A stretch of 64,000 nucleotides of DNA from Caldifarciminota bacterium (GTDB lineage Bacteria; Hydrothermota; Hydrothermia; LBFQ01; DSFT01), in the NCBI GenBank assembly GCA_025060695.1, contig JANXBH010000006.1, positions 21,437 to 85,436 on the forward strand, read 5' to 3'. The position numbers and the translations under genes are program-made. Positions 1,557 to 61,089 of the stretch are shown piece by piece. The notes beneath the pieces were generated by a model. That model was not told the DNA's origin. It did no database searches and saw only the letters and a list, made by a program, of their open reading frames with translations. Position 1 is the first letter of the stretch; each line of letters begins with the position of its first letter.

Positions 1557-1568
1557 AAAAGTTTAAAG
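1557..1568 (-). promoter_or_regulatory. leaderless-type promoter element of the FadL-type gene
   Basis: Minus strand CTTTAAACTTTT, four bases before the ATG. It is a variant of the window-wide CTTTAAAATTT element and is back-to-back with the SCO gene element. Confidence 0.6.
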
Positions 1569-1572
1569 CTGA

Positions 1573-1583
1573 CTTTAAAATTT
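1573..1583 (+). promoter_or_regulatory. leaderless-type promoter element of the SCO gene
   Basis: CTTTAAAATTT ending eight bases before the ATG at 1592. There is no SD and no recognisable -35 box. Confidence 0.65.
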
Positions 1584-1591
1584 TTTAATAT

Positions 1592-2374
1592 ATGTTCTTA
1601 ACTTTTGTATTGAACTTTCCGAGTAATATTAAGCCCGTTGAAATAGAGAATGTAGAACTTATTCCAAAGATAGGAAACAAAATTGAAGATATATATTTTT
1701 ACGACCAAACTGGGAAAAGATTTAGTTTTTCAGAGCTTACAAAAGATAGTATACCTATATTGTTAATACCAGTATACTATACATGTGAAGTTGTTTGTAA
1801 TAATACACTACTTTATACAATTGAGCAGCTTAAAAAGCTAAATGATTTAAAGATAGGAAAAGACTATAAACTAATAGCATTTTCTTTTGATTACAATAAT
1901 ACCATCTTAGATGCAACGAATAAATTTAAATACTGCAAAGTTATAGGAGGAAATGATGAAAATTGCAAGTTCTTAGTTTCAGATAGTTTGAATGTAGAAA
2001 AACTCTTAAGCGGTATAGGTTTTAAACTAAAAAGGTTAAAAAATGGTGAGATAGTTCATCCCGTAAGTATTATTGTTTTAACACCAAGTGGTAAAATTAG
2101 TAGATATTTATTAGGATTAAGTTTTTTAGGCAAAGATATTAGACTTGCAATATGGGAAGCACAATTAGAAAAGATTGAAAGCATTACGGATATAGGTAAA
2201 TCTGCAATCTTGTTCTGTTTTCATTATGATCCAAAGGGTGGAAAATATGCATTCAATTTTGCAAAAATTGCAGGTATTATTGGCATTTTAACGCTCGCAT
2301 CTATATTCGCTTATATATTTTTAACCCCTACAAAAAAAGAAAAAATACAAGCTATAAACAAGGAAGAACACTAA
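1592..2374 (+). CDS. SCO1/SenC/PrrC-type copper chaperone, C-terminally membrane anchored
   Basis: Thioredoxin-fold protein of the SCO family, which delivers copper or handles thiols for cytochrome oxidase assembly. The metal ligands are visible: Cys65 and Cys69 in CEVVC and a conserved His156 in GEIVHPVS. A hydrophobic segment at about 224-245 anchors the C-terminus, an arrangement found in some bacterial SCO proteins. The N-terminus is only MFLTFVLNF before a polar region, so the export signal is very short. An in-frame stop two codons upstream excludes a longer form. No oxidase genes are in the window. It is a single-gene transcript. Confidence 0.85.
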   Translation: MFLTFVLNFPSNIKPVEIENVELIPKIGNKIEDIYFYDQTGKRFSFSELTKDSIPILLIPVYYTCEVVCNNTLLYTIEQLKKLNDLKIGKDYKLIAFSFDYNNTILDATNKFKYCKVIGGNDENCKFLVSDSLNVEKLLSGIGFKLKRLKNGEIVHPVSIIVLTPSGKISRYLLGLSFLGKDIRLAIWEAQLEKIESITDIGKSAILFCFHYDPKGGKYAFNFAKIAGIIGILTLASIFAYIFLTPTKKEKIQAINKEEH

Positions 2375-2426
2375 AGGAAAGTCTAATTTCAGTATACACA
2401 TTAAGGACTTGCGTGGAAATTATGAT

Positions 2427-2458
2427 AATGATACATCAATTTTCTTGGTGATATCATT
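2427..2458 (+). terminator. possible terminator hairpin after the SCO gene
   Basis: AATGATA (2427-2433) pairs with TATCATT (2452-2458). A further TCA/TGA pairing lies inside and a T-run follows. The stem is AT-rich and weak, so this is tentative. Confidence 0.3.
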
Positions 2459-2521
2459 TTTCACAAGAAATTAACAATGCACACAGATATGGAAAATTAC
2501 TAATATTTAACCTAATGTTAA

Positions 2522-2698
2522 ATTCTAAGAACCACACAAAAAGATAGTAAAATACTTTCTTCATTATTTGATTTAGGTAGTAAATTTGGTCTTGTAAATT
2601 CGGATTCTTCGGTTGGACCTAAACATTTAAAACATTAAAGATTTCCTGAGGAAATAGATATAGAGTAGACCTTAATAAGGAACTTTTATGGAAAAATT
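2522..2698 (+). pseudogene. decayed coding remnant of unknown family
   Basis: The 323-base gap between the SCO gene and pyk is the longest in the left part of the window. One plus-strand frame gives 38 coherent codons (including QKDSKILSSLFDLGSKFG and VNSDSSVGPKHLKH), then TAA. It continues as RFPEEIDIE, TAG, TLIRNFYGKI. The mixed-composition peptide with two in-frame stops resembles a dying gene more than random AT-rich spacer. I do not recognise the family; a transposase or small accessory gene is possible. A near-perfect palindrome (TTTCC-TGA-GGAAA) lies at about 2641-2655. Confidence 0.35.
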
Positions 2699-4113
2699 TA
2701 GTGAATATCAGTTAAGTGTATTAAATTAGTATTACCGAGGACTTTTAGAGGAAGACCTGCAATTATAACAACTTTTGATGGTTCCTTTACTATTTTTAAT
2801 TCCTTTAACTTTAATCTTGATAAGCTTACCATTTCTTCAAATGTCCCTGCCATTTCAGAAACTATTGGTATAACATTCCAACTTAATACCAATTGATTTG
2901 CTACAAACTCGTTAGGCGTAATAGCAACTACAGGAACTATTGGTCTAAATTTTGCGACTCTTCTTGCAGTATCACCTGAAAATGTAAAAGCTATAATAGC
3001 TTTAGCATTTGCAAGCTTAGATAGCTCATACGCAGCAAATGCAACTGCATCGTTTATATCAATGTTAGCTTGCTGTGATAATCTAAATGGTGGTTTTGTG
3101 TAGTCCATAGAGTTTTCTACTTTCTTAATAATTCTATCCATAAGGGATACTGTCTCTACTGGATATTTTCCAATTGCAGTCTCGCCAGATAACATCAATG
3201 CATCAGAACCATCCAACACTGCATTTGCAACGTCCGTCACTTCAGCTCTTGTAGGATTAGGATTATTAATCATAGATTCTAACATCTGCGTAGCAGTAAT
3301 TACTGGCTTTCCTCTTTGTATACAGATTTTTATGAACCTCTTTTGAATTATTGGTAATTCTTCTATAGGAAATTCAATACCTAAATCTCCCCTTGCTATC
3401 ATTATACCATCAGCAACATTTACTATTTCCTCAATTCTTAGAACAGCAGAAGGTTTTTCTATTTTTGCTATAATCTTTGATAAGGAACCAAATCTCCTTA
3501 AGTAGTACCTTACAAGTTCTATATCAGACGGTCTTTGAACAAATGAAACTGCAATAAAATCAAAACCAAACTCAAGACCTTTCTTAATATCTTCTAAGTC
3601 CTTTTCTGTCAACGCAGAAACATCTATTTCCTTAAATGGAAGATTTATTCCCTTATTGGAAGATATCTCTCCACCTTTTATAACTCTTGTAATAAGCTCA
3701 TTATCTCTTACCTCTTCAACCCTCAAGATTATATTACCCTCTGAAAGAAGTATGATATCATTTTTATACACGTAATTTATAATCTCTTTGAAATTAACCG
3801 AAACTATTTCTTCATTTCCTTCAACTTCTTCTGTAGTTAAAATAAATCTTTGATTATCTTTTAAAATTACTTTGCCATTCTTCAATTTACCTATTCTAAT
3901 TTTTGGTCCTGCCAAATCTTGCAAGAAAGCAATTCTGATTCCAAGCTTTTTTGAGATATCCCTCACCATTCTTGCATTTTGAATATGCTCTTCAGGTATT
4001 CCATGACTGAAATTAAATCTAAATATGTTTACTCCAGATTTTATCAGACTTTCAACGACTTCTTCATTTTTACAGGATGGTCCAAATGTAGCTATAATTT
4101 TCGTCTTTCTCAA
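2698..4113 (-). CDS. pyk: pyruvate kinase
   Basis: Catalyses phosphoenolpyruvate plus ADP to pyruvate plus ATP, the last step of glycolysis, in the cytoplasm. The 471 residues match the family. Visible signatures are FNFSHG (about 33-38), DLAGPKIRIG (66-75), MIARGDLGIE (238-247, Mg and substrate binding) and TATQMLESM (273-281). A complete C-terminal domain follows. The start codon is TTG, giving MRKTKIIATFGPS, and it sits six bases after a CTTTAAAATTT element. It is a single-gene unit, divergent from the heptosyltransferase gene. Confidence 0.97.
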   Translation of the reverse strand: MRKTKIIATFGPSCKNEEVVESLIKSGVNIFRFNFSHGIPEEHIQNARMVRDISKKLGIRIAFLQDLAGPKIRIGKLKNGKVILKDNQRFILTTEEVEGNEEIVSVNFKEIINYVYKNDIILLSEGNIILRVEEVRDNELITRVIKGGEISSNKGINLPFKEIDVSALTEKDLEDIKKGLEFGFDFIAVSFVQRPSDIELVRYYLRRFGSLSKIIAKIEKPSAVLRIEEIVNVADGIMIARGDLGIEFPIEELPIIQKRFIKICIQRGKPVITATQMLESMINNPNPTRAEVTDVANAVLDGSDALMLSGETAIGKYPVETVSLMDRIIKKVENSMDYTKPPFRLSQQANIDINDAVAFAAYELSKLANAKAIIAFTFSGDTARRVAKFRPIVPVVAITPNEFVANQLVLSWNVIPIVSEMAGTFEEMVSLSRLKLKELKIVKEPSKVVIIAGLPLKVLGNTNLIHLTDIH

Positions 4114-4119
4114 TCTATA

Positions 4120-4130
4120 AAATTTTAAAG
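4120..4130 (-). promoter_or_regulatory. leaderless-type promoter element of pyk
   Basis: Minus strand CTTTAAAATTT, six bases before a TTG start. No SD is present. Confidence 0.65.
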
Positions 4131-4150
4131 TTAAGGAAAATATGTGGTTT

Positions 4151-4163
4151 TGCTATAAAATTT
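4151..4163 (+). promoter_or_regulatory. extended -10-like element of the heptosyltransferase gene
   Basis: TGCTATAAAATTT, i.e. a TATAAAATTT box preceded by TG at the extended -10 position. It ends six bases before a TTG start at 4170. Confidence 0.65.
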
Positions 4164-4169
4164 CTGAGT

Positions 4170-5159
4170 TTGAAAATATTAATTAGATTCCCAAATTGGT
4201 TAGGAGATATTATTATGTCAAAGGGTTTTTTTGATAAACTAAGAAAAATATTCAAAGGTGCAAAATTATATTCTATTGTAAAGGAAGAAATTTCAGAAGT
4301 ACTAATGCTTTTTGACAATTTTGAAAGAATATACAAATTTTCCAAAGTTAAGTATAACTCAGCGATTGGTATTTATGAATTTTCTAAGCTTATTAAAGAT
4401 AACTACGATTTGTTTTTTAGTTTGCCCGATTCATTTTCAAGTGCTTTATTAGGTTTTTTTTCAGGAGCAAGAGAAAGAATAGGATATAGCGGTCAACTTA
4501 GGGATTTTTTGCTTACAAGAGTTTATAAAAAACCAAAGAATTTACATAGAGTTGAAGAATATTGCTTCTTGTTAAAGGATTTTGATAGTGAGGTATTAAG
4601 TAATATAAAGGTAAATTTGGATATTGAGCCAAGTAGGGAATTATTGAATATAAATGCAAGATATAAAATAGCAGTAAATATAAACTCAGAGGCACAAAGC
4701 AGAAGAATGTCTATTTCAAAATGGGCAAGGATTATTGAAAGAATTTTAAAAGAAACTGATAGTTATATTATATTAACAGGTTCAAAGAAGGACATAAATA
4801 GAGTAAATTGGCTTATAGAAACTTTAGAAGACAATAAAAGAATTTTAAATTTTACAGGAAAAACCAACTTAATAACTTTATCTTCTATAATAAAGTCTTG
4901 TAATTTAATGTTATCAGCTGACTCCGGTCCAGCACACCTTGCAAATGCCTTAGGGATAAAGACTGTTGTGTTATTTGGTGCTGGAGATGAAAGAAATACC
5001 GCTCCATACAATAAGGAAATTTTAAGAATAGTAAGAATAAATTTAGATTGCTCTCCTTGCTTGAAAAATACCTGTAAATACAAAGTTCCTATATGTCTTG
5101 AAAATATTGAGGAAGAAACTATAGTAAATGCTGTTTTTAAATTTTTAGAAAAGGACTAA
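4170..5159 (+). CDS. glycosyltransferase family 9 (ADP-heptose:LPS heptosyltransferase-like)
   Basis: Member of the WaaC/WaaF group that adds heptose to the inner core of lipopolysaccharide at the cytoplasmic face of the inner membrane. Signs are the N-terminal FPNWLGDIIMSKGFF (residues 7-21, the usual heptosyltransferase start) and the donor-binding DSGPAHLANALG (251-262) with VVLFG after it. The 329-residue length fits. A Cys-rich tail (about 291-308, four Cys) is typical of the family. The start is TTG. The gene stands alone, without other LPS genes nearby, so which heptose it adds is open. Confidence 0.85.
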   Translation: MKILIRFPNWLGDIIMSKGFFDKLRKIFKGAKLYSIVKEEISEVLMLFDNFERIYKFSKVKYNSAIGIYEFSKLIKDNYDLFFSLPDSFSSALLGFFSGARERIGYSGQLRDFLLTRVYKKPKNLHRVEEYCFLLKDFDSEVLSNIKVNLDIEPSRELLNINARYKIAVNINSEAQSRRMSISKWARIIERILKETDSYIILTGSKKDINRVNWLIETLEDNKRILNFTGKTNLITLSSIIKSCNLMLSADSGPAHLANALGIKTVVLFGAGDERNTAPYNKEILRIVRINLDCSPCLKNTCKYKVPICLENIEEETIVNAVFKFLEKD

Positions 5160-6608
5160 TTATTGTCCTTGACCTAAACTATATACCCTTTTATCTCCTA
5201 TGTAATATAAATTTTCTATCTTTATCCAATTTAAACCCTTTGCTTCTATTCTTTCTAAAAGTTCTCTAATGTCCTTATGAGTAATACTACTATCAGATTC
5301 AAATCTACAACGCCAGTGGTCAGTTAATAAAGTCTCAGTAATTTCACTTGGATATACCTTCTGTCCCCTATTAGTTATCATAATAAGTTTTAGTTTTTCT
5401 GTTTGTACTTCTTCTAAAAGCTTTCCAATTTCATGAGGTTTTAATCTTCTTTCATCTAAGAAGACATCAACTCCTCTAAGTGTAAGTATAGCATCCCTTA
5501 CATTCCTTGTTTCTTTTATTTTTATCTTAATTAGTGGGTATTTTGCAGGTTTTAAGACTTTCGGTTCTTCCCCAATTCTTTCAACTATTGCACTTGCAAA
5601 TTCTTTAGTCCCAACTTGCTTATAGTCAGTTATTCCATTTTCCTTTAGAACTCTTGCTATATCGTAAGTGACTATCTTGTCTTCTAATGTTTTTAACCAA
5701 GCATTTTCTATTTTCTGGGCAATATCTCCTTGACCAATATGCACAAGCATCATAACTGCTGCATTCAATAGTCCTGAAGGATTTGCCATATTTAAGCCTG
5801 CATACTTTGGAGCTGAACCATGTATGGCTTCAAACATTGCATATTCATCACCAATATTTGCGCTTCCTGCAAGACCTATTGAACCCGCTATTTCAGCTAC
5901 AACATCCGAAGCAATGTCACCATAAAGATTAGGTAAAACTACTACTTCAAAAATCTCTGGACTATTTGCAAGTTTTGCCATACCTATGTCTATTATCCAA
6001 TGGTCCTTTTGAATATCTGGATATTCCTGACCTATTTCTTCAAATATTTTATGAAATAAGCCATCAGTGATTTTTAGAATATTATCTTTTGTCATACAAG
6101 TTACTTTAGTTCTTCCTGTTGCTCTTGCATATTCAAATGCAAATCTAATAATCTTTTCAGTGCCGGGAATCGAAATTAACTTAAGTGCCATAGTCATTTC
6201 AGAAGTTTGTTGATATTCAATAGAACCGTACAAGTCTTCTTCGTTTTCTCTTACTATTACTAAGTTCATATTTGGACTTCTACAAGGGATAATTGGGTGA
6301 TAACTTCTAACAGGTCTTAAATTAGCATATAGTCCAAGAGTTTTTCTAATTGTTACATTTATACTTTTATATCCACCTCCCTGTGGAGTAGTAATAGGGG
6401 CTTTTAGTAATATTTTGTTTTTCTTTATAGTTTCCCAAGCAGTATCGGGTATTCCACTTGTATTACCACTTAAATAAACTTTCTCTCCAACCTCAATTTC
6501 ATCTATTTCAACTCTTGCACCCGCTGAAAAGAGCACATTTAAGACCGCATCCATTATCTCAGGTCCTATTCCATCTCCTCTTGCAACTGTTATTCTTGCT
6601 TTTTCCAT
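5160..6608 (-). CDS. icd: isocitrate dehydrogenase, Thermus-type with C-terminal extension
   Basis: Oxidatively decarboxylates isocitrate to 2-oxoglutarate, probably with NADP. Residues 1 to about 340 form the isocitrate/isopropylmalate dehydrogenase fold: ARGDGIGPEIM (9-19), a catalytic stretch around VIVRENEEDLYGS, NLYGDIASD and the cofactor segment AIHGSAPKYAG. About 140 further residues follow, as in the long IDH of Thermus, whose tail forms a separate domain. It is a single-gene unit, divergent from the TPM-domain gene, with ATG seven bases after a TATAAAATTT box. Confidence 0.92.
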   Translation of the reverse strand: MEKARITVARGDGIGPEIMDAVLNVLFSAGARVEIDEIEVGEKVYLSGNTSGIPDTAWETIKKNKILLKAPITTPQGGGYKSINVTIRKTLGLYANLRPVRSYHPIIPCRSPNMNLVIVRENEEDLYGSIEYQQTSEMTMALKLISIPGTEKIIRFAFEYARATGRTKVTCMTKDNILKITDGLFHKIFEEIGQEYPDIQKDHWIIDIGMAKLANSPEIFEVVVLPNLYGDIASDVVAEIAGSIGLAGSANIGDEYAMFEAIHGSAPKYAGLNMANPSGLLNAAVMMLVHIGQGDIAQKIENAWLKTLEDKIVTYDIARVLKENGITDYKQVGTKEFASAIVERIGEEPKVLKPAKYPLIKIKIKETRNVRDAILTLRGVDVFLDERRLKPHEIGKLLEEVQTEKLKLIMITNRGQKVYPSEITETLLTDHWRCRFESDSSITHKDIRELLERIEAKGLNWIKIENLYYIGDKRVYSLGQGQ

Positions 6609-6615
6609 AATTTCG

Positions 6616-6627
6616 AAATTTTATAGC
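6616..6627 (-). promoter_or_regulatory. leaderless-type promoter element of icd
   Basis: Minus strand GCTATAAAATTT, seven bases before ATG. It faces away from the TPM gene element, which begins at the same point. Confidence 0.65.
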
Positions 6628-6637
6628 CTTAAAATTT
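6627..6637 (+). promoter_or_regulatory. leaderless-type promoter element of the TPM-domain gene
   Basis: CCTTAAAATTT, six bases before a GTG start at 6644. The whole divergent spacer is 35 bases. Confidence 0.65.
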
Positions 6638-6643
6638 TTTAAA

Positions 6644-7417
6644 GTGTTATTATATTTTATTATTTCCCAAGCTTTTCCAAAGCCAATAGGATTTGTTAAT
6701 GATTATGCAAATATTTTAAATGAGAATCAGAAAAGCGAACTAGAAAATCAATTAGTTAAATTAGAGAAAAATACAACTATAGAATTAGCTGTTGCTATTT
6801 TTGATTCAATTGGATATCCTATTGAGGAGTATGCCAATTTATTATTCGAAAAATGGGGAATAGGTAAGAAAGAAAAAGATAATGGAATTTTGATTGTTTT
6901 ATCTATAAAAGAAAAATCAGTTAGAATTGAAGTGGGTTATGGTCTTGAAGAAATTATAACTGATGGAATAGCGGGTGAGATTATTAGAAAATCAATGATT
7001 CCGTATTTTAAAGAAGGTAATTTTTACTTGGGTTTAAAAAGTGGAATAGAAGAAATAAGCAAAAAAGTTCAGAGTAATGGTATTGAAAGTGCTAATAAAG
7101 AAGAAAAACCAATAAATATCTTCTATGGGTTAATAATTATGTTCTTCGTTTCTATGTTTCTTGGATATATAGGAATAATTTTGGCTATATTTTTTTTCAT
7201 TGCTTTTTTACTATCCAAGTCCTTACATATATTGTTGCTCTCTTTAGGTTCTTTTATCGGGGCTATATTTGGTATTATATTTTTTAAAAATACTTTAGTA
7301 TTAGGTCGAGTAAGAAGTAGTAGATATTCTTTTGGAGGTGGATTTGGTAGTTCTGGTGGTTTTGGTGGATTTGGAGGTGGTTTATCAGGCGGAGGAGGAG
7401 CAACTGGAAAATGGTAA
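6644..7417 (+). CDS. TPM-domain (YgcG-type) membrane protein with glycine-rich tail
   Basis: A 257-residue protein of the TPM/YgcG family, which has been linked to photosystem II repair in plants and is poorly defined in bacteria. The GTG start gives MLLYFIISQA, a ten-residue hydrophobic leader, followed by the TPM domain (about 14-150: FVNDYANILNENQKSELE, WGIGKKEKDNGILIVLS, VEVGYGLEEIITDGIAGEII). Two or three membrane helices follow (about 160-218), then a Gly/Ser-rich end (SFGGGFGSSGGFGGFGGG). This order is standard for the family. A single-gene unit, directly upstream of the isomerase gene, which has its own promoter element. Confidence 0.88.
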   Translation: MLLYFIISQAFPKPIGFVNDYANILNENQKSELENQLVKLEKNTTIELAVAIFDSIGYPIEEYANLLFEKWGIGKKEKDNGILIVLSIKEKSVRIEVGYGLEEIITDGIAGEIIRKSMIPYFKEGNFYLGLKSGIEEISKKVQSNGIESANKEEKPINIFYGLIIMFFVSMFLGYIGIILAIFFFIAFLLSKSLHILLLSLGSFIGAIFGIIFFKNTLVLGRVRSSRYSFGGGFGSSGGFGGFGGGLSGGGGATGKW

Positions 7418-7425
7418 TTATAGGA

Positions 7426-7436
7426 CCTTAAAATTT
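7426..7436 (+). promoter_or_regulatory. leaderless-type promoter element of the SIS isomerase gene
   Basis: CCTTAAAATTT, seven bases before ATG at 7444 and just after the TPM gene stop. Confidence 0.65.
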
Positions 7437-7443: not shown

Positions 7444-8418
7444 ATGATTGAAATTATTAGAAGTATTCCAAAACAATTAAAGGAATCTTTTGAATTTCCC
7501 ACTTATAAAGTAGAGGGTCATATTAAAAAAATAGGAATATGTGGTATGGGAGGTTCGGGTATAGTAGGTGATATAGTAAAAGGTTTAATAGGAGATAAAA
7601 TAATAATTGAAGTAGTAAAGGACTATCATATTCCATCATACTTAGATGCTAACAGTTTGGTATTTATTATAAGCTATTCTGGAAACACTGAAGAAACTAT
7701 TAGTGCATTCGAAAGTGCTTTTAAAAATGGATGTAGGATTATAATAATTACAAGTGGTGGAAAGTTAAAAGAAATTGCAGAAAAATATGAAATACCGTTA
7801 ATTCTAATTCCAAAGGGTTATCCACCAAGAGGAGCCATTGGATATATGTTAGGTAGTGTTCTACTAAATCTTGAGAAAAATGGAATAGTTCAAATTTCAA
7901 GAGAACTAAAGGAGAGTATTGAGTTTCTGGATAAACTAACTAAAGAATTTGAAAGTCATTCATCTATTGCTTTTGAAATTGCAAGCAAATTATATCTAAG
8001 ACTTCCAATAATATATTCAACTAAAAGGACATATCACATTGCATATAGATGGCAAACTCAAATAAACGAAAATGCGAAAAGTTTTTGTCATATAAATGTT
8101 TTACCTGAAATGAACCACAATGAAATAAATGGAATAAAAAATCCACAATCAATTATCTCAAGAAGTTGGCTTATATTTATATACGATGAAAGCGATGATG
8201 AAAGAATAAAAAGAAGAATAGAAATTACATCAGAAATATTAAAAGATAGTGTAATGGGTGTAAGTACGATTAAAGGAAAAGGTGAAACTTACTTACATAA
8301 AATGCTATATTTAATCATTTTGGGTGATTATGTTAGCTATTTTTTAGCAAGAATGTATAATGAAGACCCGTATTCAATACCAAGAATTGAAGAATTAAAG
8401 ACAAGAATGAAATTTTAG
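7444..8418 (+). CDS. bifunctional phosphoglucose/phosphomannose isomerase (SIS domain)
   Basis: A 324-residue enzyme that by family interconverts glucose-6-phosphate or mannose-6-phosphate with fructose-6-phosphate. The SIS phosphosugar fold shows in ICGMGGSGIVGDIV (about 32-45) and the phosphate loop IISYSGNTEETI (75-86). The C-terminal half carries INENAKSFCHINVLPEMNHNE, typical of the bifunctional PGI/PMI family found in archaea and some thermophilic bacteria. No other phosphoglucose isomerase is in the window, so this may be the glycolytic enzyme. Single-gene unit with its own element. Confidence 0.88.
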   Translation: MIEIIRSIPKQLKESFEFPTYKVEGHIKKIGICGMGGSGIVGDIVKGLIGDKIIIEVVKDYHIPSYLDANSLVFIISYSGNTEETISAFESAFKNGCRIIIITSGGKLKEIAEKYEIPLILIPKGYPPRGAIGYMLGSVLLNLEKNGIVQISRELKESIEFLDKLTKEFESHSSIAFEIASKLYLRLPIIYSTKRTYHIAYRWQTQINENAKSFCHINVLPEMNHNEINGIKNPQSIISRSWLIFIYDESDDERIKRRIEITSEILKDSVMGVSTIKGKGETYLHKMLYLIILGDYVSYFLARMYNEDPYSIPRIEELKTRMKF

Positions 8419-8421: not shown

Positions 8422-8432
8422 CTTTAAAATTT
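8422..8432 (+). promoter_or_regulatory. leaderless-type promoter element of nuoD
   Basis: CTTTAAAATTT, five bases before ATG at 8438, starting three bases after the isomerase stop. Confidence 0.65.
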
Positions 8433-8437: not shown

Positions 8438-9631
8438 ATGGAAGTTATTACAAAAGATGAAAATTATGTAGAACTTAATGTAGGACCACAACACCCTGCA
8501 ACACACGGTGTTTTAAGAGTAGTATTAACACTTGACGGAGAAAAAATTGTAAAAGCTAAGTGTAAAATAGGTTATTTACATAGAGGAACTGAAAAACTTG
8601 GTGAGGAAAAGAATTACTATCAAATGCTTATATATACCGACAGGTTAGATTACCTTGCACCACTTTCAAATAATTTTGCATACGTTAGAGCAGTAGAAAA
8701 ACTTTTAGGTATAGAAAATAAGATACCAAAAAGGGCAGAATATTTAAGGGTAATACTTGCAGAACTCTCAAGAATAGCAAGTCATATAGTAGGTATTGGA
8801 ACACATGTAATGGATATTGGAGCATGGACATTTTTCCTACATGCATTTAGGGAAAGAGAAAAGATATATGATTTATTAGAGGAAATATCAGGGCAAAGGA
8901 TGAATAATACATTCTTTAGATTTGGAGGGGTTGCAGCGGATTGTCCTGATGGTTGGCTTGATAAGGTATATAAGTGGGCGGATGAATTTGAAAAAAAAGT
9001 CTGGTCAGAGCTAATGGATTTAGTAGCGGAAAACCCAATATTTAAGGAGAGAACTATAGGAATTGGAATAATACCAAAAGAATTAGCAATAAACTTATCA
9101 CTTACAGGACCATTACTTAGAGCAAGTGGTATAAAAAAAGACTTAAGAAAAGACAGTCCGTATTCAGTATATAGTGAGTTTAATTTTGAAGTCCCCATTG
9201 GTAAAAATGGAGATACTTATGACAGATTTTTGGTAAGAATGGAGGAAATGCGTCAAAGTGCAAGAATAATAAAACAAGCTATTGAAAGAATACCTGATGG
9301 GGATGTTTTGATAGATGATTATAAAATAGTTCCACCACCAAAGAAAATAGTATACTCTCAAATTGAGTATCTAATTCATCATTTCAAAATTATGAGCGAA
9401 GGATTTTTAGTTCCGGAAGGTGAAGCTTATGCAAGTGTTGAAGGACCAAAGGGAGAAATAGGATTTTATATAGTATCAGATGGTTCATCTAAACCATATA
9501 GATTTAGAATAAGACCACCAAGTTTTATAAATTTACAAGCATTAGAAGAAATAGCACCTGGTCATTTAATAGCAGACTTTATAGCACTAATTGGGACAAT
9601 AGATATAGTCTTAGGAGAAGTTGATAGATAA
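8438..9631 (+). CDS. nuoD: NADH-quinone oxidoreductase subunit D (Nqo4)
   Basis: The 49-kDa-type subunit of respiratory complex I, which helps form the quinone-binding pocket in the peripheral arm. It has LNVGPQHPATHGVLRVV near the N-terminus, GYLHRGTEKL, LAELSRIASHIVGIG, and the C-terminal segment EGPKGEIGFYIVSDG with PSFINLQAL. At 397 residues it is full length. No other complex I subunit lies within the window, so the gene is split from the usual nuo operon or the operon is scattered. It is followed by, and overlaps, the CCA-type nucleotidyltransferase gene. Confidence 0.96.
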   Translation: MEVITKDENYVELNVGPQHPATHGVLRVVLTLDGEKIVKAKCKIGYLHRGTEKLGEEKNYYQMLIYTDRLDYLAPLSNNFAYVRAVEKLLGIENKIPKRAEYLRVILAELSRIASHIVGIGTHVMDIGAWTFFLHAFREREKIYDLLEEISGQRMNNTFFRFGGVAADCPDGWLDKVYKWADEFEKKVWSELMDLVAENPIFKERTIGIGIIPKELAINLSLTGPLLRASGIKKDLRKDSPYSVYSEFNFEVPIGKNGDTYDRFLVRMEEMRQSARIIKQAIERIPDGDVLIDDYKIVPPPKKIVYSQIEYLIHHFKIMSEGFLVPEGEAYASVEGPKGEIGFYIVSDGSSKPYRFRIRPPSFINLQALEEIAPGHLIADFIALIGTIDIVLGEVDR

Positions 9632-15765: not shown

Positions 15766-15775
15766 AAATTTTAAA
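15766..15775 (-). promoter_or_regulatory. leaderless-type promoter element of dnaE
   Basis: Minus strand TTTAAAATTT, four bases before ATG. No SD is visible. Confidence 0.65.
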
Positions 15776-15832
15776 TTTATACAATTAAGCAAGTTAAAAT
15801 TATAAAATTAAGTGTCAATCGTCCTATAAAGC

Positions 15833-17942: not shown

Positions 17943-17953
17943 AAATTTTAAGG
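17943..17953 (-). promoter_or_regulatory. leaderless-type promoter element of priA
   Basis: Minus strand CCTTAAAATTT, four bases before ATG and only five bases from the oppositely oriented lepB element. Confidence 0.65.
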
Positions 17954-17958: not shown

Positions 17959-17969
17959 CTTTAAAATTT
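17959..17969 (+). promoter_or_regulatory. leaderless-type promoter element of lepB
   Basis: CTTTAAAATTT, five bases before a CTG codon at 17975 in the lepB frame. The first ordinary start codon is 65 bases further on. Confidence 0.6.
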
Positions 17970-23641: not shown

Positions 23642-23652
23642 AAATTTTAAGG
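23642..23652 (-). promoter_or_regulatory. leaderless-type promoter element of lnt
   Basis: Minus strand CCTTAAAATTT, overlapping the stop codon region of the upstream Fe-S oxidoreductase gene and five bases before CTG. Confidence 0.6.
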
Positions 23653-25631: not shown

Positions 25632-25641
25632 AAATTTTAAT
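25632..25641 (-). promoter_or_regulatory. leaderless-type promoter element of the Fe-S oxidoreductase gene
   Basis: Minus strand ATTAAAATTT, five bases before ATG. It includes the TAA stop of the preceding DUF3108 gene. Confidence 0.6.
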
Positions 25642-26326
25642 GCCCAACCATTTTTACTATATGTCCTATTACACTACCTACTACTAAGTTTAACTTAATC
25701 TTTACTGGTATTTTCTTCGTTGAGGAAATAATAATCTCCCCACCTCTATCACCAAAAACCTCTTTTGCCTTGTTTTCATCCATAGGCAATATAGGAGAAA
25801 CTACATAACACTCTTCTTTTATATCAAGCCATTCGCATCTTTCTTTTCTCTTTATAAATATTTTAGCATAACCAGAAAAACCATCCATATGATATGGAAC
25901 AAGTATTGTATCTTTTAGATCAATAAATCTCACATAATATATAAGTGCAACAGGGTCAAGTGCATTTTTTGGAATATCAAAAACTTTACTATTTCTCCTT
26001 CCAGCTTTTACTTCATCATATTTTGCATAGTTTTCAAAGTAATCTATTGTAACTTCGTAGTTCCAACCAGGTTCTATTTGCCTTTTGTAAAATCTAACTG
26101 TTCTAAAGTTTTGCGTATCAACCCAAGAGATAAAGTCTTCGTATAAATTTATACCAAGTGCTCCACCTTTTGCAAAAAGCCTTAATTTATAACAAGGAAT
26201 ATTTCTAATAACTTCAACTCCCTCAACTTTTAAATACATACTTCCAACATTTACAAAACTATACTTTGCCCTATAATCTATCCTTTCGCCAACATTCAAT
26301 GTAAAACTAATTAGCAAATTTATCAT
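25637..26326 (-). CDS. DUF3108-type exported protein
   Basis: A 229-residue strand-rich protein resembling DUF3108 (LolA/LppX-like beta fold, probably periplasmic): LNVGERIDYRAKYSFVNVGSM near the start, SWVDTQNFRTVRFYKRQ and VKIKLNLVVGSVIGHIVKM at the end. The leader is only MINLLISFTLN. It starts 20 bases inside the end of thiL. The AGAGG site is two bases from ATG and five from the following ATA codon, so either could be used. Last gene of the CoA-binding-tldE-thiL unit. Confidence 0.75.
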   Translation of the reverse strand: MINLLISFTLNVGERIDYRAKYSFVNVGSMYLKVEGVEVIRNIPCYKLRLFAKGGALGINLYEDFISWVDTQNFRTVRFYKRQIEPGWNYEVTIDYFENYAKYDEVKAGRRNSKVFDIPKNALDPVALIYYVRFIDLKDTILVPYHMDGFSGYAKIFIKRKERCEWLDIKEECYVVSPILPMDENKAKEVFGDRGGEIIISSTKKIPVKIKLNLVVGSVIGHIVKMVGH

Positions 26327-29357: not shown

Positions 29358-29369
29358 AAAAGTTTAAAG
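29358..29369 (-). promoter_or_regulatory. leaderless-type promoter element of the CoA-binding gene
   Basis: Minus strand CTTTAAACTTTT, the same variant as at the FadL-type gene, six bases before ATG and overlapping the merR stop. Confidence 0.6.
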
Positions 29370-30096: not shown

Positions 30097-30107
30097 AAAT
30101 TTTAAGG
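30097..30107 (-). promoter_or_regulatory. leaderless-type promoter element of the flavin reductase gene
   Basis: Minus strand CCTTAAAATTT, overlapping the stop of the rRNA methylase gene and five bases before TTG. Confidence 0.65.
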
Positions 30108-31214: not shown

Positions 31215-31225
31215 CTTTAAAATTT
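31215..31225 (+). promoter_or_regulatory. leaderless-type promoter element of the cell-division unit
   Basis: CTTTAAAATTT, six bases before ATG 31232, at the right edge of the repeat-bearing gap. Confidence 0.65.
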
Positions 31226-32256: not shown

Positions 32257-33733
32257 CAAATATAAAAATTTGGCAAAAAATCAATTTAAACTAAAGATTA
32301 CAAGGTTTCCACAAAGAGGGACTATTTACGATAGAAACCTTAGACCTATAGCGTACAGTATTCCAAGACTTATGGTTTATCAATATTTAGATTCAGTAGT
32401 TGATTACTATGGAATTTTAAAATATTTGAAAATTAAGGATAACACTAATTCAAAACTGCCAAAGTTATTATCAGACGATGTCCCTATAGAATACAGGAAG
32501 TTTATAATTTCTCCAAAGGAAAGAGGATTATTTGCTATTAAATATTATAAAAGGTTATATCCATTTTTTGAAATTTCTCAGAATTTAGTAGGTTTTGTTA
32601 GTGATATGGATGGTATGGAAGGATTAGAAAGGTCATTGGATATGTATTTAAAGGGTAGTGTTGGATATGAGGAGGTTTTTCAAAGTGCTGATGGAAAGAG
32701 ATTTTATATTCCTTATAGTAATAAAAATGAACCTAAAAGAGGTCTTGATGTAATTACAACCATAGATATGAAAATTCAAAATATTGCTTATAATCATTTA
32801 AAAAATGCTGTTATAAGTGAAGGAGCAAATTGGGGATTTGTAATAGTAGCTGATCCTCAAAGTGGTGAAATTTTAGCAATGGCGAACTATCCAAATAGCT
32901 ATAAAAACTATTCAATTCAATATATGTACGAACCGGGTTCAACATTTAAAATATTTACTTTTGCTAAAGCCTTAGAATTGAACCTGATAAGCGATAGTGA
33001 TAGTGTGTTTGTAAATAGAGATGGTATATTAGTTGATGGATATAGAATTAAAAATGTTGAAAAAACATCAGGATATATAACTTATGGTGAGGCTTTGAGT
33101 TATTCTATAAATTCAGCTTTTGCTAAGCTTGGTATAACGATGGGAGGGAATGAATTATATGAAATTGCAAGAAGAGTTGGCTTTGGTATAAGAACGGATG
33201 TTCTCTTGAATGGTGAAACAAATGGTATATTGAAAAGAAGATATAAAAATATAGATATTGCGAATTTTGCGATTGGACAGGGATTTTCTATAAATGGTCT
33301 TCAAATGGTAATGGCATATAGTTGCATAGCAAATGGAGGCTACCTTGTTGTTCCAAGAATTATATTAAAAATTGGGGATACTTTGTATAGTAATAGGATA
33401 GTTGTAAGAAAGTGTTTTTCTTCTGATATATCAAATAAGCTAAAGTTAATTCTTTTAGATGTAGTAGAAAGGGGTTCAGGAAAACTTGCAAAAATGGATA
33501 ATATAAAAGTAGCAGGAAAGACAGGAACTTCTCAAAAGTTCTTAGATGGAAGTTATAGTGATGATAAAGTTATAACTTCGTTTATTGGTTTTTTCCCTGT
33601 TGAATATCCAAAATATTTAATTTATGTAGTATTAGATGAACCAAAATTTAATAAATTTGGTGGAACATCAGCTGCCCCTGTTTTTAAAAGAATTGCGAGG
33701 GATATTCTAAAATATCAGACTTTAAAATTTTGA
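32165..33733 (+). CDS. ftsI: division-type peptidoglycan transpeptidase (penicillin-binding protein)
   Basis: A class B PBP that crosslinks septal peptidoglycan. It starts with a membrane anchor (MKIRITLIILILIVWLVIVI), the RGTIYDRN box of the pedestal domain, then the transpeptidase domain with SxxK (EPGSTFKIF), SxN (SINSAF) and KTG (GKTGTSQK). Length is 522 residues. Its place after an ftsL-like gene and before the mrdA-rodA set suggests FtsI rather than PBP2. The hpf promoter element lies in its last codons. Confidence 0.9.
   Translation: MKIRITLIILILIVWLVIVIIKLFHIQILDSKYKNLAKNQFKLKITRFPQRGTIYDRNLRPIAYSIPRLMVYQYLDSVVDYYGILKYLKIKDNTNSKLPKLLSDDVPIEYRKFIISPKERGLFAIKYYKRLYPFFEISQNLVGFVSDMDGMEGLERSLDMYLKGSVGYEEVFQSADGKRFYIPYSNKNEPKRGLDVITTIDMKIQNIAYNHLKNAVISEGANWGFVIVADPQSGEILAMANYPNSYKNYSIQYMYEPGSTFKIFTFAKALELNLISDSDSVFVNRDGILVDGYRIKNVEKTSGYITYGEALSYSINSAFAKLGITMGGNELYEIARRVGFGIRTDVLLNGETNGILKRRYKNIDIANFAIGQGFSINGLQMVMAYSCIANGGYLVVPRIILKIGDTLYSNRIVVRKCFSSDISNKLKLILLDVVERGSGKLAKMDNIKVAGKTGTSQKFLDGSYSDDKVITSFIGFFPVEYPKYLIYVVLDEPKFNKFGGTSAAPVFKRIARDILKYQTLKF
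33720..33730 (+). promoter_or_regulatory. leaderless-type promoter element of hpf, inside the ftsI end
   Basis: CTTTAAAATTT, four bases before ATG 33735. It also encodes the last residues of ftsI, so the transcript start is nested in the upstream gene. Confidence 0.6.
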
Positions 33734-36743: not shown

Positions 36744-36754
36744 CCTTAAAATTT
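36744..36754 (+). promoter_or_regulatory. leaderless-type promoter element of the sortilin-like gene
   Basis: CCTTAAAATTT, four bases before ATG 36759. It selects this ATG over the in-frame TTG at 36753, which lies inside the element. Confidence 0.65.
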
Positions 36755-40564: not shown

Positions 40565-40575
40565 AAATTTTAAGG
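40565..40575 (-). promoter_or_regulatory. leaderless-type promoter element of the HhH-barrel gene
   Basis: Minus strand CCTTAAAATTT, six bases before ATG 40558. Confidence 0.65.
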
Positions 40576-41800: not shown

Positions 41801-41811
41801 CCTTAAAATTT
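41801..41811 (+). promoter_or_regulatory. leaderless-type promoter element of the E1beta gene
   Basis: CCTTAAAATTT, four bases before ATG 41816. Confidence 0.65.
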
Positions 41812-47623: not shown

Positions 47624-47634
47624 CTTTAAAATTT
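47624..47634 (+). promoter_or_regulatory. leaderless-type promoter element of the E2 gene
   Basis: CTTTAAAATTT, six bases before ATG 47641. Confidence 0.65.
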
Positions 47635-51176: not shown

Positions 51177-51187
51177 AAATTTTAAGT
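51177..51187 (-). promoter_or_regulatory. leaderless-type promoter element of the methyltransferase gene
   Basis: Minus strand ACTTAAAATTT, inside the end of the upstream ABC gene, five bases before ATG. Confidence 0.6.
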
Positions 51188-51829
51188 CCCAAAAATTTCA
51201 AGACTTAAATTAAAAACCTGTTTGAAGTTTTCTTCATTTAAAGTCCTTGCATATATCTTTCCGTCTTTCATAAGTATAAAATTACTAAAAAACTTAGTTG
51301 CCAAAAAGATATCGTGAATAGTTAATATAAATGTTTTTTCACTATTTTTAATGTATTGTAATAGCCTTATCTGAAAATAAGGATCTAAGTGAGAAAGAGG
51401 TTCATCTAAAATAGATATTTTTTGAGTTGAATTTATAACCCTACTAAGTCTTACTCTTTGGAATTCTCCTGCGGATAGTTCGTTCATCTTTCTATTTAAA
51501 AGTTCCTTAATTTCCATTAAGTCAATTTCTAATTTCACTCCAGAAAGTTTTAAATAAGTTTTTACAGTAATGTCAGGTTGATATTCAACTTGTAATAAGA
51601 AAGAGCAATATTTTATTAGTTCTTCTTGACTAATATTTTTTAGCTCTTTTGAGTAAATCTTAACTGAGCCCTCATAGTCTATTTGCTTAAGCAAAGTTCT
51701 TATAAGTGTAGTTTTTCCACTTCCATTTGGACCAAGTATTACAATTTTTTGATTTTCAAAAACTTCTAACTTATCTATGAATATTCTAAAATTTTTATAA
51801 CCTGCAGAAAGTTTTAGAATCTCTAAAAT
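51182..51829 (-). CDS. ABC transporter ATP-binding protein, possible ATT start
   Basis: A 215-residue ABC ATPase: Walker A ILGPNGSGKTTLI, a signature loop NELSAGEFQRVRLSR, Walker B KISILDEPLSHLDP and the switch His in LTIHDIFLAT. No permease is adjacent, so its substrate and partner are unknown; the form is that of metal or cobalamin importers. An ATG at 51904 in frame would start inside the divergent OsmC gene and before the promoter element. ATT 51829, three bases after CTTTAAAATTT, gives MLEILKLSAGYKNF, which matches the usual ABC beginning. Confidence 0.85.
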   Translation of the reverse strand: MLEILKLSAGYKNFRIFIDKLEVFENQKIVILGPNGSGKTTLIRTLLKQIDYEGSVKIYSKELKNISQEELIKYCSFLLQVEYQPDITVKTYLKLSGVKLEIDLMEIKELLNRKMNELSAGEFQRVRLSRVINSTQKISILDEPLSHLDPYFQIRLLQYIKNSEKTFILTIHDIFLATKFFSNFILMKDGKIYARTLNEENFKQVFNLSLEIFGT

Positions 51830-51832
51830 GCT

Positions 51833-51843
51833 AAATTTTAAAG
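51833..51843 (-). promoter_or_regulatory. leaderless-type promoter element of the ABC ATPase gene
   Basis: Minus strand CTTTAAAATTT, three bases before the proposed ATT start and six bases from the OsmC element. Confidence 0.55.
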
Positions 51844-51849
51844 AATTAG

Positions 51850-51860
51850 CTTTAAAATTT
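51850..51860 (+). promoter_or_regulatory. leaderless-type promoter element of the OsmC-thrS unit
   Basis: CTTTAAAATTT, seven bases before ATG 51868. Confidence 0.65.
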
Positions 51861-51867
51861 TGAAAAT

Positions 51868-52377
51868 ATGAATAACGTAAATGTAAAGCAGTTGTTTGAA
51901 ACAAGAGAAAAAATTATTAAAAATCAGTTTCCATCAGAGAGAGAATTTATAGTAGAAGGTGAATGGGTTTTTGATAAACATATTCAATTTACTGGAAGGA
52001 TAGAATATACTAATGGGATAGTGGAGCTTTCAACAGATCAGCCTCCACAAAGTGGAGGATATGGAAATGCGCCCAATCCCGTTCAAATTTGTGTTTTCGG
52101 AGTAATTAGTTGCTATTCTACTACGTTTATGACAATAGCCTCTTTAAGAGGAATAGAGATTAAAAAACTTAAAGCGAAAGGCTCTATTCTTTTAGATATG
52201 AGAAGTGTTTTTGAAATAGAAGATTTACCTGTAGTAAAAAAAGTAAGTGTAGAATTAGATATAGAGTCCGATGTGGATAGAAGTGTTTTAGAAGAGATAA
52301 GACTATTAGCAAATAAAAAATGTCCTGCAGCATATGTAATTCAAAATCCTATAGAGCTTGAAACAAAAATAAAATAA
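51868..52377 (+). CDS. OsmC/Ohr-type thiol peroxidase family protein
   Basis: A 169-residue protein of the OsmC superfamily, which removes organic peroxides with a reactive Cys pair. The first Cys is probably in NPVQICVFGVISCYSTTF (a long helix as in the family) and the second in LANKKCPAAYVI. DQPPQSGGYGNAPNP precedes the helix. Its stop overlaps the thrS ATG (TAATG), so peroxide defence and threonyl-tRNA synthetase share one transcript. Confidence 0.88.
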   Translation: MNNVNVKQLFETREKIIKNQFPSEREFIVEGEWVFDKHIQFTGRIEYTNGIVELSTDQPPQSGGYGNAPNPVQICVFGVISCYSTTFMTIASLRGIEIKKLKAKGSILLDMRSVFEIEDLPVVKKVSVELDIESDVDRSVLEEIRLLANKKCPAAYVIQNPIELETKIK

Positions 52378-56503: not shown

Positions 56504-56514
56504 AAAGATTTTTA

Positions 56515-58325: not shown

Positions 58326-58332
58326 TGAGACT

Positions 58333-59975
58333 ATGTTATCAAGAATGGTAAGGAGTATATACAACACAATTATATCGGACATAGTGACTAACATAGAAAC
58401 CATAAGTGCTTATTATTGGACATTTTTTGAAGCTGTAAGAGCAGTAGGGAAATTAAAAGAAAACGGAGGAAATGGAGAAGATGCTAAGAAATACATTGAT
58501 AGATTAAAACTAATAGAAAATAAGATGTTAACTGGAGAAGGTGATGTTGAAATATACAAAATTGATAATACAAAGAGTGTTTATGCAAGGGTTTCACAAA
58601 TTAGAAGAAGTCCTATAATTGTAATGGGTCCTCCTGGTGTAGGAAAATCTGAAACAATACAAAACCTTGCAGAGCAGAAAATAGAAGATGAGAATGGAAA
58701 TGTTAAAACTTTTGGTATGAGGTTTAAAGAAGAAGTAAGTAATATTATCTCTTCACATATTATTGGTAAGTTTTACAATGCTTATGAAATTAAGGAAGTT
58801 GGAGACGTAATTGATAGTAGAGTTAGTGAGATAGTTTATGATTTTGTAAAATATATGGAAAACATAGAGTTAAGAGTATTAACTACTACATTATCACAAT
58901 TAAAACAATGGCAAATTGCAGGAATAGTGACAATTAGAGATATAGGTTATGATTTAGAAGAAACGGCAGTTGATATAGGAAAAGGTATAGCATACTCAAT
59001 TACGAAGAATGCAAGAGCTGATGAGATGATTGTTCCGAATTTCTATCCTTCATTCTCTGATGTTCTTGAAAGAAAGCCTATTTATTGGGTTTGGTTCTTA
59101 GACGAGCTTGTTAATACATTTCCTGAAAATATGCCACTAATTAATCAGCTTTTAGTTGAAGGACAAATTTCAAACAATTCATTAGGTCCAAACTTAACTA
59201 TAGTTTCAGCAGGAAATCCATTTTTTGGTTTTAATGGTACTTGACAATGGTCATTTTTGTACTTTAAAGTTTTGGTATGACATATAGACTTGAAAAGAAA
59301 AAGTAAGATGTTCTTTCAGATGTATCATTATACACTGAGGAATTTATTAGTCATTTTAAACATTTTCTCCTTACACTGCCAAATGAAGTTAATCTCGTAA
59401 ATCCTATGTTTAGGCTTAATAAAATTGATATCAATGAAGAAAAAAATTTTAAATTAACGTATGATAAACTTGTAGAGTTAATAGATTTAACACTAAGTAG
59501 AATTGCAAGTAAAAATCAAGACCTCAAAGTAGAATTAAAAAAAACGACGAATGCTGAAAGAACACCCTTCATGTACATGGTAAGTGCATTATCATACAAA
59601 AATATGACAATGTCTGTAAGTAAAGCACCATATAGTAGTAGTGAATCGTGGTTTGCTGCAACGAGAAGAGCAATACCAATAGTAGAACAAATTTATAATA
59701 AACCTGATATTGATTATTACAAAGCGCTCCTAACTAACGTGGTTGAAATTTTAAGTAGTAATATTTCAGAAGCTGATATGGAGGCTTTTTATACAGGAGA
59801 TAAAAAAATAATTTACAATGAGTTTGGCTACAATATAATGGAGCTTGCTGGGACTATTGGAAGTCTTCCTGGGGTTTCTTATGGTTTATATCTTATTGTA
59901 AGAAGTATAGAAAAATCAAGTTCTTCTGATATGGGGGAAGAAAGCATGACAAAAAGACAATGCATGAAGAAATAA
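58333..59975 (+). pseudogene. broken MoxR-like AAA+ ATPase, island gene 3
   Basis: The first 303 codons are intact and hold Walker A MGPPGVGKSETIQNL (about 98-112), a long insert, Walker B IYWVWFLDELVNTFPE and sensor 1 TIVSAGNPFFGFNG, the pattern of MoxR/CbbQ-type ATPases that remodel or activate partner proteins. At the sensor the frame breaks (TGA 59242). A shifted frame continues LDNGHFCTLKFWYDI, then stops, and another reads TEEFISHFKHFLLTLPNEVN into a 189-codon open frame ending at 59975. The gene is thus split by at least two indels plus stops. Full ancestral length was about 540 codons. Confidence 0.8.
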
Positions 59976-60663
59976 TAGAATATAACGAACATTTAAACTT
60001 TTTACAACTTCTTATTCAATCTGTAAATGTCCTTTTACATTTAATTTATACCGAAGCAGTTAGTCAGATATTTACAAAATTGCCTGGGGTTCTTAGAAAA
60101 TCAGTAATAGATAGTTTTTTTATGGAAAAACAAAAAGAAGCCTATAAGTTTATACTATGACAGAAATAGCATATAGACATTCTTGCAAAAAAGAATATTG
60201 TTTTTTCAAATTTCAATAGATGAATACCAAGCAGGTCTTTTATTTAGAATGGCAGATGGTGTTAGAGAATACAATTCTTGTTTAATATCTACATTTATGT
60301 TATTAAATTTCCAGATATAGAAAAAGATAAAGCGGGGGTTTTGTGGGAACTCATTTAAAGTATTTGGTTTTCTTGATTTCAATGAGTGTGATACTTTGAA
60401 CAGGTAAGGTCTATAAAAATCGCATATTTTATTGATGGCGAATGAAGTTAAAATTATTAAAGGATTTCGTTGAGAAAAACAAGGTTAGATTTTCACTTCA
60501 TCTTATAACAGAGAATAAATACAAAGAGCTAATGGATGATTTTAATCAATTTTTAGCTCAAAATTACAAAAAAACAATTTTGAAATTCCAAAAGAATAAG
60601 CTAAACTTTGAACAAAGACGAGAACGATGCAAGAAAGCTTTACGAAAGATACTACAAAGGTGA
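59945..60663 (+). pseudogene. degraded downstream gene of the island, unknown family
   Basis: Fragments in three frames: HEEIIEYNEHLNFLQLLIQ (open 59960-60160), then ISIDEYQAGLLFRMADGVRE (about 60207 on, broken by stops), IEKDKAGVLWELI in another frame, and a 73-codon piece with VRFSLHLITENKYKELMDD and a basic end (60442-60663). MoxR-type ATPases are usually followed by a VWA or metallopeptidase-like partner gene; this fragment is where it would lie, but I see no clear MIDAS motif. No SD or promoter element is present. The remaining 80 bases to the next gene hold nothing recognisable. Confidence 0.55.
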
Positions 60664-60741
60664 TTTTTTAACTAAAACTAATGACATAAACAGCGCACAA
60701 TTCTTTTGAACTAAAAAATGCTGACAATCAAAAAAACATTA

Positions 60742-61029
60742 TTATATACTCTCTCTTCTTTTTTTCAAAAATAGCTTATATAAGTTTTCATCATTTATAG
60801 AAATTATGCCTACTTCACCTCTATCAAAAACTTTTCCCAATTCTTCCTTAGTCATGTCTAATATAATTATCTCTATGTTTAGTCTTTTAGCTAATTTTAT
60901 TATTTTCTGTTTTCCTGCATAATCTTTTGCCAAAATTATAGCCTTTACATTTCTTATTGACTTTATAGTTTGCATCGTCCCAATCTTTAGCTTTCCAGTC
61001 TTTCTGATAAATCTTAATATCTGTTCCAA
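60742..61029 (-). CDS. L7Ae/L30e-family RNA-binding protein
   Basis: A 95-residue protein of the L7Ae/L30e/YlxQ group, which binds kink-turn RNA. RKTGKLKIGTMQTIKSIRNV (9-28) and KAIILAKDYAGKQKIIKLAKR (29-49) are the family blocks, followed by IEIIILDMTKEELGKVFD and GIISINDENLYKLF. Bacterial members are small ribosome- or RNase P-associated proteins. It starts with TTG, eight bases after CCTTAAAATTT; the nearer ATG is out of frame. Single-gene unit, divergent from dapB. Confidence 0.88.
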   Translation of the reverse strand: MEQILRFIRKTGKLKIGTMQTIKSIRNVKAIILAKDYAGKQKIIKLAKRLNIEIIILDMTKEELGKVFDRGEVGIISINDENLYKLFLKKRRESI

Positions 61030-61037
61030 AACTGCAT

Positions 61038-61048
61038 AAATTTTAAGG
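61038..61048 (-). promoter_or_regulatory. leaderless-type promoter element of the L7Ae-like gene
   Basis: Minus strand CCTTAAAATTT, eight bases before the TTG start. Confidence 0.6.
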
Positions 61049-61076
61049 AATAAAAAAGCAATTTTAAGATATTTTG

Positions 61077-61089
61077 TGCTATAAAATTT
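61077..61089 (+). promoter_or_regulatory. extended -10-like element of dapB
   Basis: TGCTATAAAATTT, identical to the heptosyltransferase gene element, four bases before ATG 61094. Confidence 0.65.

Follow-up and report, generated by a model that had tools for sequence, protein, structure and literature searches.

A C-T-T-extended -10 element as the probable main promoter of leaderless or nearly leaderless first genes in a Caldifarciminota bacterium

What does a short AT-rich element do that stands within a few bases of so many start codons? The question is raised by a 64,000-nucleotide stretch of DNA from a Caldifarciminota bacterium (contig C66:21437-85436 of genome G000), which was analysed as a whole and is called the window here. 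A preliminary description had seen the element, given as (C)YTTAAAATTT, upstream of 28 window genes and in every case 3-8 bases before the start codon, and had proposed that its TAAAAT is a -10 hexamer and that first genes of operons are by default leaderless. Having followed this up across the genome (1.50 Mb, 77 contigs, GC content 29.3%; genome-wide counts cover 48 contigs, 1.477 Mb), we consider it very probable from the sequence patterns below that the element, RCTTTAAAATTT in its best form, serves this organism as its main promoter and that first-gene mRNAs are leaderless or nearly so. Genes (1,394) were called from hexamer coding statistics, blind to the motif; divergently oriented first genes (n=382, from 191 divergent pairs) are referred to as divergent heads. 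Offsets give the hexamer position counted back from the start codon, and genes with the element at -17 to -12 are termed locked.

Both strands of the window hold 44 copies of CTTTAAAATTT with at most one mismatch (dinucleotide shuffles: 22.4 +/- 4.5, maximum 34), and 22 of its 61 called genes are locked. Further sites lock to starts that the caller had mis-set, namely those of genes 167-1552 (-) and 29612-30091 (-) and CTG codons at 17975 (+) and 23636 (-), which gives about 26 in all, close to the 28 first reported. Genome-wide, TAAAAT stands at -13 in 106 cases where the mean rate across the 60 nucleotides (nt) upstream predicts 12.2, and the position-locked words are TAAAAT at -13/-12, CTTTAA at -16/-15 and AGGAGG near -12. 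Exact TAAAAT falls between -18 and -6 in 60.5% of divergent heads, compared to 5.5% for an equal control window (-58 to -46); among same-strand genes it is found in 53% of those with 16-40-nt gaps, in 26% of those with 1-15-nt gaps and in 5% of overlapping genes. De novo expectation maximisation (EM) from four unrelated seeds converged each time on ACTTTAAAATTT, a motif of 13-14 bits present in ~80% of divergent heads. The lock has a sharp edge, since 49 divergent heads have TAAAAT at -12 and four at -11, and the offsets of all 418 locked genes (97 at -12, 118 at -13, 63 at -14, 81 at -15, 37 at -16, 22 at -17) include almost none nearer than -12. The claim of a position-locked motif at first-gene starts thus holds throughout the genome, and a position-locked -10-like signal ~10 bp 5' of the start codon is what marks bacterial leaderless (TA-led) genes. 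Altogether, 67% of divergent heads are locked and another 9% are locked to an alternative in-frame start. Separately, 124 strong intergenic copies (at least 12 bits) are not followed by a called start; they may mark small genes, non-coding RNAs or starts that were set wrongly.

Alignment of the 418 locked genes yields the full consensus R(-16)C(-15)TTTAAAATTT (short form (A/G)CTTTAAAATTT), in which C-15 (0.91), T-14 (0.81) and T-13 (0.92) are followed by T-12, A-11, A-10, A-9, A-8, T-7, T-6 and T-5. This upholds the core of the earlier consensus, albeit with C-15 as the most informative base (2.1 bits) and with a Y at -14 that is only partly C. The CTTTAAACTT variant noted before does recur (A-8 is C in 7%), while the TG-extended form is not general. 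Like extended -10 (TGn) promoters, for example those of Lactococcus TA-led genes (PMC3160421), the element has extra bases 5' of the -10 that replace a -35 box; unlike them, it has C-15 and T or C at -14 (G ~0) instead of TG (T-15 G-14) before the hexamer. It conforms to a sigma-70-type -10, that is TANNNT with near-invariant A-11 and T-7 placed 6-8 nt before the presumed +1, at stable RNA genes too. An archaeal arrangement (TATA box and B recognition element, AT-rich box near -26) does not apply, as the box lies at -12 to -7 and RpoD is present. Bacteroidota promoters carry TTG at -33 and TAnnTTTG at -7; here the motif reads TAAAATTT, with no G at -5. From -17 to -57 the 418 upstream regions hold no information (at most 0.1 bit), TTGA shows no positional peak and the logo no -35 block with TTGACA at 17 +/- 1 nt, in keeping with the initial impression that a -35 box is not apparent.

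We regard the element as transcriptional because of where it is found, where it is avoided and what it excludes. It precedes 30 of 37 transfer RNA (tRNA) and transfer-messenger RNA (tmRNA) genes, with C-15, A-11 and T-7 in 30/30 (several of the seven genes without it are second in tandem and one lies inside a ribosomal RNA (rRNA) operon), the 16S rRNA promoter region contains CTTTAAAATTTT, and a cobalamin and a thiamine pyrophosphate (TPP) riboswitch lie directly behind it. Relative to synonymous-codon shuffles, antisense copies in open reading frames (ORFs) are depleted (25 vs 59 +/- 6 at 12 bits or more, 3 vs 17 +/- 4 at 14 bits or more) and neither sense copies nor the reversed word are, which suggests that stray antisense copies are selected against, as expected if the element alone initiates transcription. 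Shine-Dalgarno (SD)-like words occur in 5.5% of divergent heads, in 40% of same-strand genes with 1-15-nt gaps and in 20% of overlapping genes, and no divergent head (0/382) combines one with the element. This fits the proposal that SD sites are left mainly to internal genes. Could the element instead be an AT-rich translation signal, bound by the ribosome or S1 and similar to the non-SD starts of Bacteroidota and the Fibrobacterota-Chlorobiota-Bacteroidota (FCB) group? It does precede start codons that lack SD sites, an S1-like gene is present in the genome and the FCB group is reported to have AT-rich non-canonical ribosome-binding sites (StartLink paper, PMC9581028). Yet the same element with the same C-15 stands before tRNA, tmRNA and 16S rRNA genes and riboswitches, only 5% of overlapping operon genes, which need translation starts too, possess it, and its antisense copies within ORFs are avoided. 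So to our minds, a translation signal is improbable in the extreme.

Mechanistically, we envisage a -10 hexamer TAAAAT (-12 to -7) that is fused to R-C-T-T at -16 to -13 on one side and to a run rich in T at -6 to -4 on the other. It would be read by an RpoD-type sigma factor, largely or wholly without help from a -35 box. With +1 placed 6-7 nt past T-7, transcription from offsets -12/-13 would begin on the start codon itself and from offsets -15 to -17 at an A-Y-T initiator 3-5 nt 5' of it. Since the bases preceding the start codon at offsets -15 to -17 do read A-Y-T(-T), the same pattern as the A(+1)C(+2)T(+3)T(+4) after the element of tRNA genes, we predict leaders of 0 or 3-5 nt. Transcription from the start codon had been anticipated from reading TAAAAT as a -10, and position lock, edge at -12, SD exclusion, stable-RNA and riboswitch promoters, antisense depletion and conservation (see below) all fit such a -10 promoter with leaders of 0-5 nt. 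With mRNAs that start at or within ~5 bases of the start codon, ribosomes would have to begin without the usual upstream landing site. Hence, first genes would be translated without SD, which would serve operon-internal genes and a minority of leadered first genes; the anti-SD itself is intact, given a 16S rRNA 3' end of ...GGATCACCTCCTTT. Placed further upstream, the same element would initiate tRNA, tmRNA, rRNA and riboswitch transcripts. RpoD recognition, the exact start nucleotide and leaderless translation are what we infer here from sequence.

Several observations weigh against a leaderless, -35-free promoter. Rather than every case, as claimed before, a substantial majority of divergent heads fit, with 18% carrying the element only further upstream and 24/382 (6%) having none. 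Matches of at least 5/6 to TTGACA at spacers of 15-20 are in slight excess (24/418 promoters or 5.7%, vs 11 displaced and 9 shuffled, 2.2-2.6%), the 16S rRNA promoter region has TTGAAT with an 18-nt spacer and RpoD region 4.2 is normal with its RERVRQIE core kept; because of the latter two, -35 contacts may boost a few promoters. Also, start codons were set by codon statistics and not curated, so that individual offsets can be wrong, and the TAA of the motif reads as a stop codon in frame when the offset is -12 or -15 and may bias start calls toward these two. The farther-upstream copies in 18% of divergent heads would likewise suit a promoter with leadered transcripts, whose true start lies upstream and for which the element is a downstream or secondary promoter. 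However, both genes are locked in 86 of the 191 divergent pairs, and the mostly small gaps between their elements leave little space for another promoter, which is why we judge this option very unlikely. Even less probable is an operator beside a hidden promoter, bound by a nucleoid protein or regulator that acts globally. Though 12 bp in length, strong conservation and extension to a palindrome would be in line with it, the element is directional (C-15 and R-16 upstream only), keeps a fixed distance to starts and includes a canonical -10 with invariant A-11 and T-7, and the 418 aligned promoters reveal no second conserved block upstream. Placement at tRNA and rRNA genes and riboswitches leads us to reject both this and the translation signal.

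The promoter reading also bears on start codon choice. Starts of the 418 locked genes are mostly ATG, but TTG and GTG are used as well, and six more sites have an in-frame CTG at leaderless distance and no ATG, GTG or TTG (window 17975 (+) and 23636 (-); elsewhere in the genome C11:58690 (+), C55:93469 (+), C11:101673 (+) and C22:114261 (+)), where ~0.3-0.4 are expected from a background of 0.0025 CTG per codon. Profile matches of the CTG-extended proteins begin at position 3 for PolA (5'-3' exonuclease domain) and LepB (signal peptidase S26), at position 2 for LptF/LptG and at position 5 for Lnt (LNT_N); for a fifth extended protein, ZIP-like, the match is limited to the C-terminal part. With the extension the first four thus acquire a conserved N-terminal domain in full. 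This suggests that a few genes (polA, lepB, lptF/G, lnt) use leaderless CTG starts that gene finders overlook. For ATT in the same role, 8 cases are about what the background gives, and no such claim is made. In the window, the listed ORF of an ABC-ATPase-like gene, 51182-51904 (-), so named by eye from its Walker A motif, runs into the divergent gene next to it; a promoter element of its own at 51843-51833 puts the likely real start near 51829, with an in-frame ATT in place of a canonical start codon.

How closely two such promoters can be packed is seen in divergent pairs. Measured from one C-15 to the other, nine pairs have a gap of -16, values from -15 to -2 do not occur, and most of the remaining gaps lie between -1 and +14. 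A gap of -16 equals one shared, perfect or near-perfect 16-bp palindrome, CTTTAAAATTTTAAAG (9/191 pairs), which takes up the greater part of the space between the two genes (18-20 bp in the three cases printed out); in CAT-CTTTAAAATTTTAAAGCT-ATG, for instance, the 18 bp between two start codons are all there is. Examples lie at C44 ~30281, C1 ~25839 and C1 ~37057, the last adjoining a sigma-factor gene, and an orthologue in the same-genus genome G001 keeps the palindrome with CAT on the other side. By sequence, then, these nine pairs resemble bidirectional promoters, in which a shared symmetric -10 has divergent start sites ~10-23 bp apart.

Relatives carry the element, too. Compared with a reversed-pattern control, CTTTAAAATTT-N5-ATG occurs 62 vs 2 times here, 77 vs 0 times in the same genus and 7 and 6 vs 0 times in two same-family genomes; the remaining genomes of the phylum sample and 11 named outgroup genomes have close to none. 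The nearest named relative by DnaE (69%) is the metagenome-assembled genome JZ-1.bins.166.201901, whose motif counts are identical to those of G001. Same-family genomes of 51% GC again yield CCTTTAAAATTT as their de novo motif, at an unchanged offset and also before tRNA genes, and orthologues retain the element while flanks diverge. In G008, which belongs to another family of the order (GC 53%), TANNNT lies at -16 to -11 in 40/58 heads vs 5/96 control windows, and its motif (C-18, C-15, Y-14, T-13) gives a sister-family form CnnCYTTANAAT; CYTTANAAT-N7-ATG exceeds its control in 12/12 genomes of the order, with a weak excess in some sister families. Based on these motif counts and de novo motifs, the leaderless layout appears common to at least the order, with CTTTAAAATTT as the version of the family. 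In most genomes of the class, TANAAT 13 nt before ATG (TANAAT-N7-ATG) is also more frequent than a reversed, admittedly crude control (20 vs 1 and 85 vs 25, for example), a hint that the layout may predate the order.

As for its reader, the genome has three sigma region-2 genes, among which RpoD (C44:20298-21923 (-)) would be the natural candidate given the element's place before stable RNA genes. At a position that we take to be Q446 of E. coli, every aligned RpoD of the order has H, where Q or N is found elsewhere in the class, and a T440I exchange (presumed E. coli numbering again) is seen in this genome only. H446/I440 as the basis of C-15 recognition is a lead rather than evidence, since a mild CYT excess is also seen in families f10 and f4, which lack the H. 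RpoD of family f1 carries one extra residue behind the region-4.2 helix.

Leaderless expression from a -10 is established in Deinococcus (PMC12340547) and Mycobacterium tuberculosis (PMC3898074) and predicted for many bacteria (PMC3160421; 21.6% of bacterial species by GeneMarkS-2, as cited in PMC9581028), the motifs being TANNNT or TGn-TATAAT. In Deinococcus-Thermus, TANNNT -10 boxes adjoin ORFs, mRNAs are leaderless and a bare -10 can act as promoter (PMC12340547; PMC3160421). Shared features are a -10 few bases before the ORF, a mostly missing -35, SD sites left to other genes and a large share of genes involved; in contrast to the weak TANNNT of Deinococcus (often TACACT, at 6-7 bp), we see in an AT-rich genome a 12-bp, 13-14-bit block with C-15, T-14, T-13 and a T-rich -6 to -4. 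M. tuberculosis genes count as leaderless if the start site is at most 5 bp from the start codon (26% of genes with a primary start site), and these promoters, too, have TANNNT at -10 without a conserved -35 (PMC3898074). There, SRN/TGN variants precede TANNNT and ribosomal-protein genes are not leaderless, whereas here a CTT extension does so and an S20-like first gene (by eye) is locked. One near-symmetrical -10 is known to drive divergent transcripts, with E. coli start sites 10-23 bp apart (PMC12825309); as there, a single element would serve both directions, but in our nine pairs the palindrome fills most of the gap and both products are apparently leaderless. The comparison supports a promoter that works like the -10-only leaderless promoters of Deinococcus and Mycobacterium, but is stronger, CTT-extended, TG-less and -35-less. 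The kind is thus already known; new are the C-T-T extension, the 12-bp, 13-14-bit block and its symmetric sharing by nine divergent leaderless pairs. With somewhat less than even confidence we would go further and propose that this single block, recognised by a sigma factor whose contact has changed from TG to C-15, is a self-sufficient promoter replacing the -35/-10 pair genome-wide in the family, that its palindrome can occupy almost all the DNA between two divergent leaderless genes and that CTG starts are tolerated. With these findings, leaderless expression as the rule for first genes would reach a deep uncultured lineage, and the promoter signal is so clean that starts could be re-annotated from sequence alone, including those gene finders miss. 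Moreover, the order shows a -10 promoter shift from CnnCYTTANAAT to CTTTAAAATTT across genome GC of 28% to 53% and may serve as a test case for co-evolution of sigma specificity and leaderless translation.

Table 1. Promoter element sites in the window and the genes behind them
Feature	Position	Strand	Gene and remarks
Promoter element, CTTTAAACTTT variant	1558..1568	-	167-1552 (-); back-to-back with 1573..1583; caller start 21 nt downstream
Promoter element	1573..1583	+	1592-2374 (+); offset -16
Promoter element	4120..4130	-	2698-4113 (-); TTG start; offset -14
Promoter element CTATAAAATTT	4153..4163	+	4170-5159 (+); TTG start
Promoter element	6616..6626	-	Isocitrate dehydrogenase gene 5160-6608 (-); offset -15
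Promoter element	6627..6637	+	6644-7417 (+); abuts 6616..6626 back-to-back, both in 35-nt gap
Promoter element	7426..7436	+	7444-8418
Promoter element	8422..8432	+	8438-9631
Promoter element (ATTTAAAATTT)	15766..15776	-	dnaE 12432-15761 (-); offset -12
Promoter element	17943..17953	-	priA 15833-17938 (-); offset -12
Promoter element	17959..17969	+	Signal peptidase I gene; predicted CTG start 17975; offset -13 (listed ORF start 18035)
Promoter element	23642..23652	-	Lnt-like gene; predicted CTG start 23636; offset -13 (listed ORF start 23624)
Promoter element (CATTAAAATTT)	25632..25642	-	23647-25626 (-)
Promoter element (CTTTAAACTTT)	29359..29369	-	28923-29351 (-)
Promoter element	30097..30107	-	29612-30091 (-); TTG start; offset -13
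Promoter element	31215..31225	+	31232-31984
Promoter element	33720..33730	+	33735-34022; offset -12
Promoter element	36744..36754	+	Gene with ATG start 36759
Promoter element	40565..40575	-	39083-40558 (-)
Promoter element	41801..41811	+	41816-42835; offset -12
Promoter element	47624..47634	+	47641-48834
Promoter element	51833..51843	-	ABC-ATPase-like gene 51182-51904 (-); in-frame ATT 51829 at offset -11
Promoter element	51850..51860	+	51868-52377; offset -15
Promoter element	61038..61048	-	60742-61029 (-); TTG start; offset -16
Promoter element CTATAAAATTT	61079..61089	+	61094-61756; offset -12

Outside the window, CRISPR-DR2-type repeats stand at the end of contig C55 (L156:16819-16848) and at the start of contig C10 (L018:1-30), and because they lie at contig ends, a CRISPR array is probably broken across contigs.

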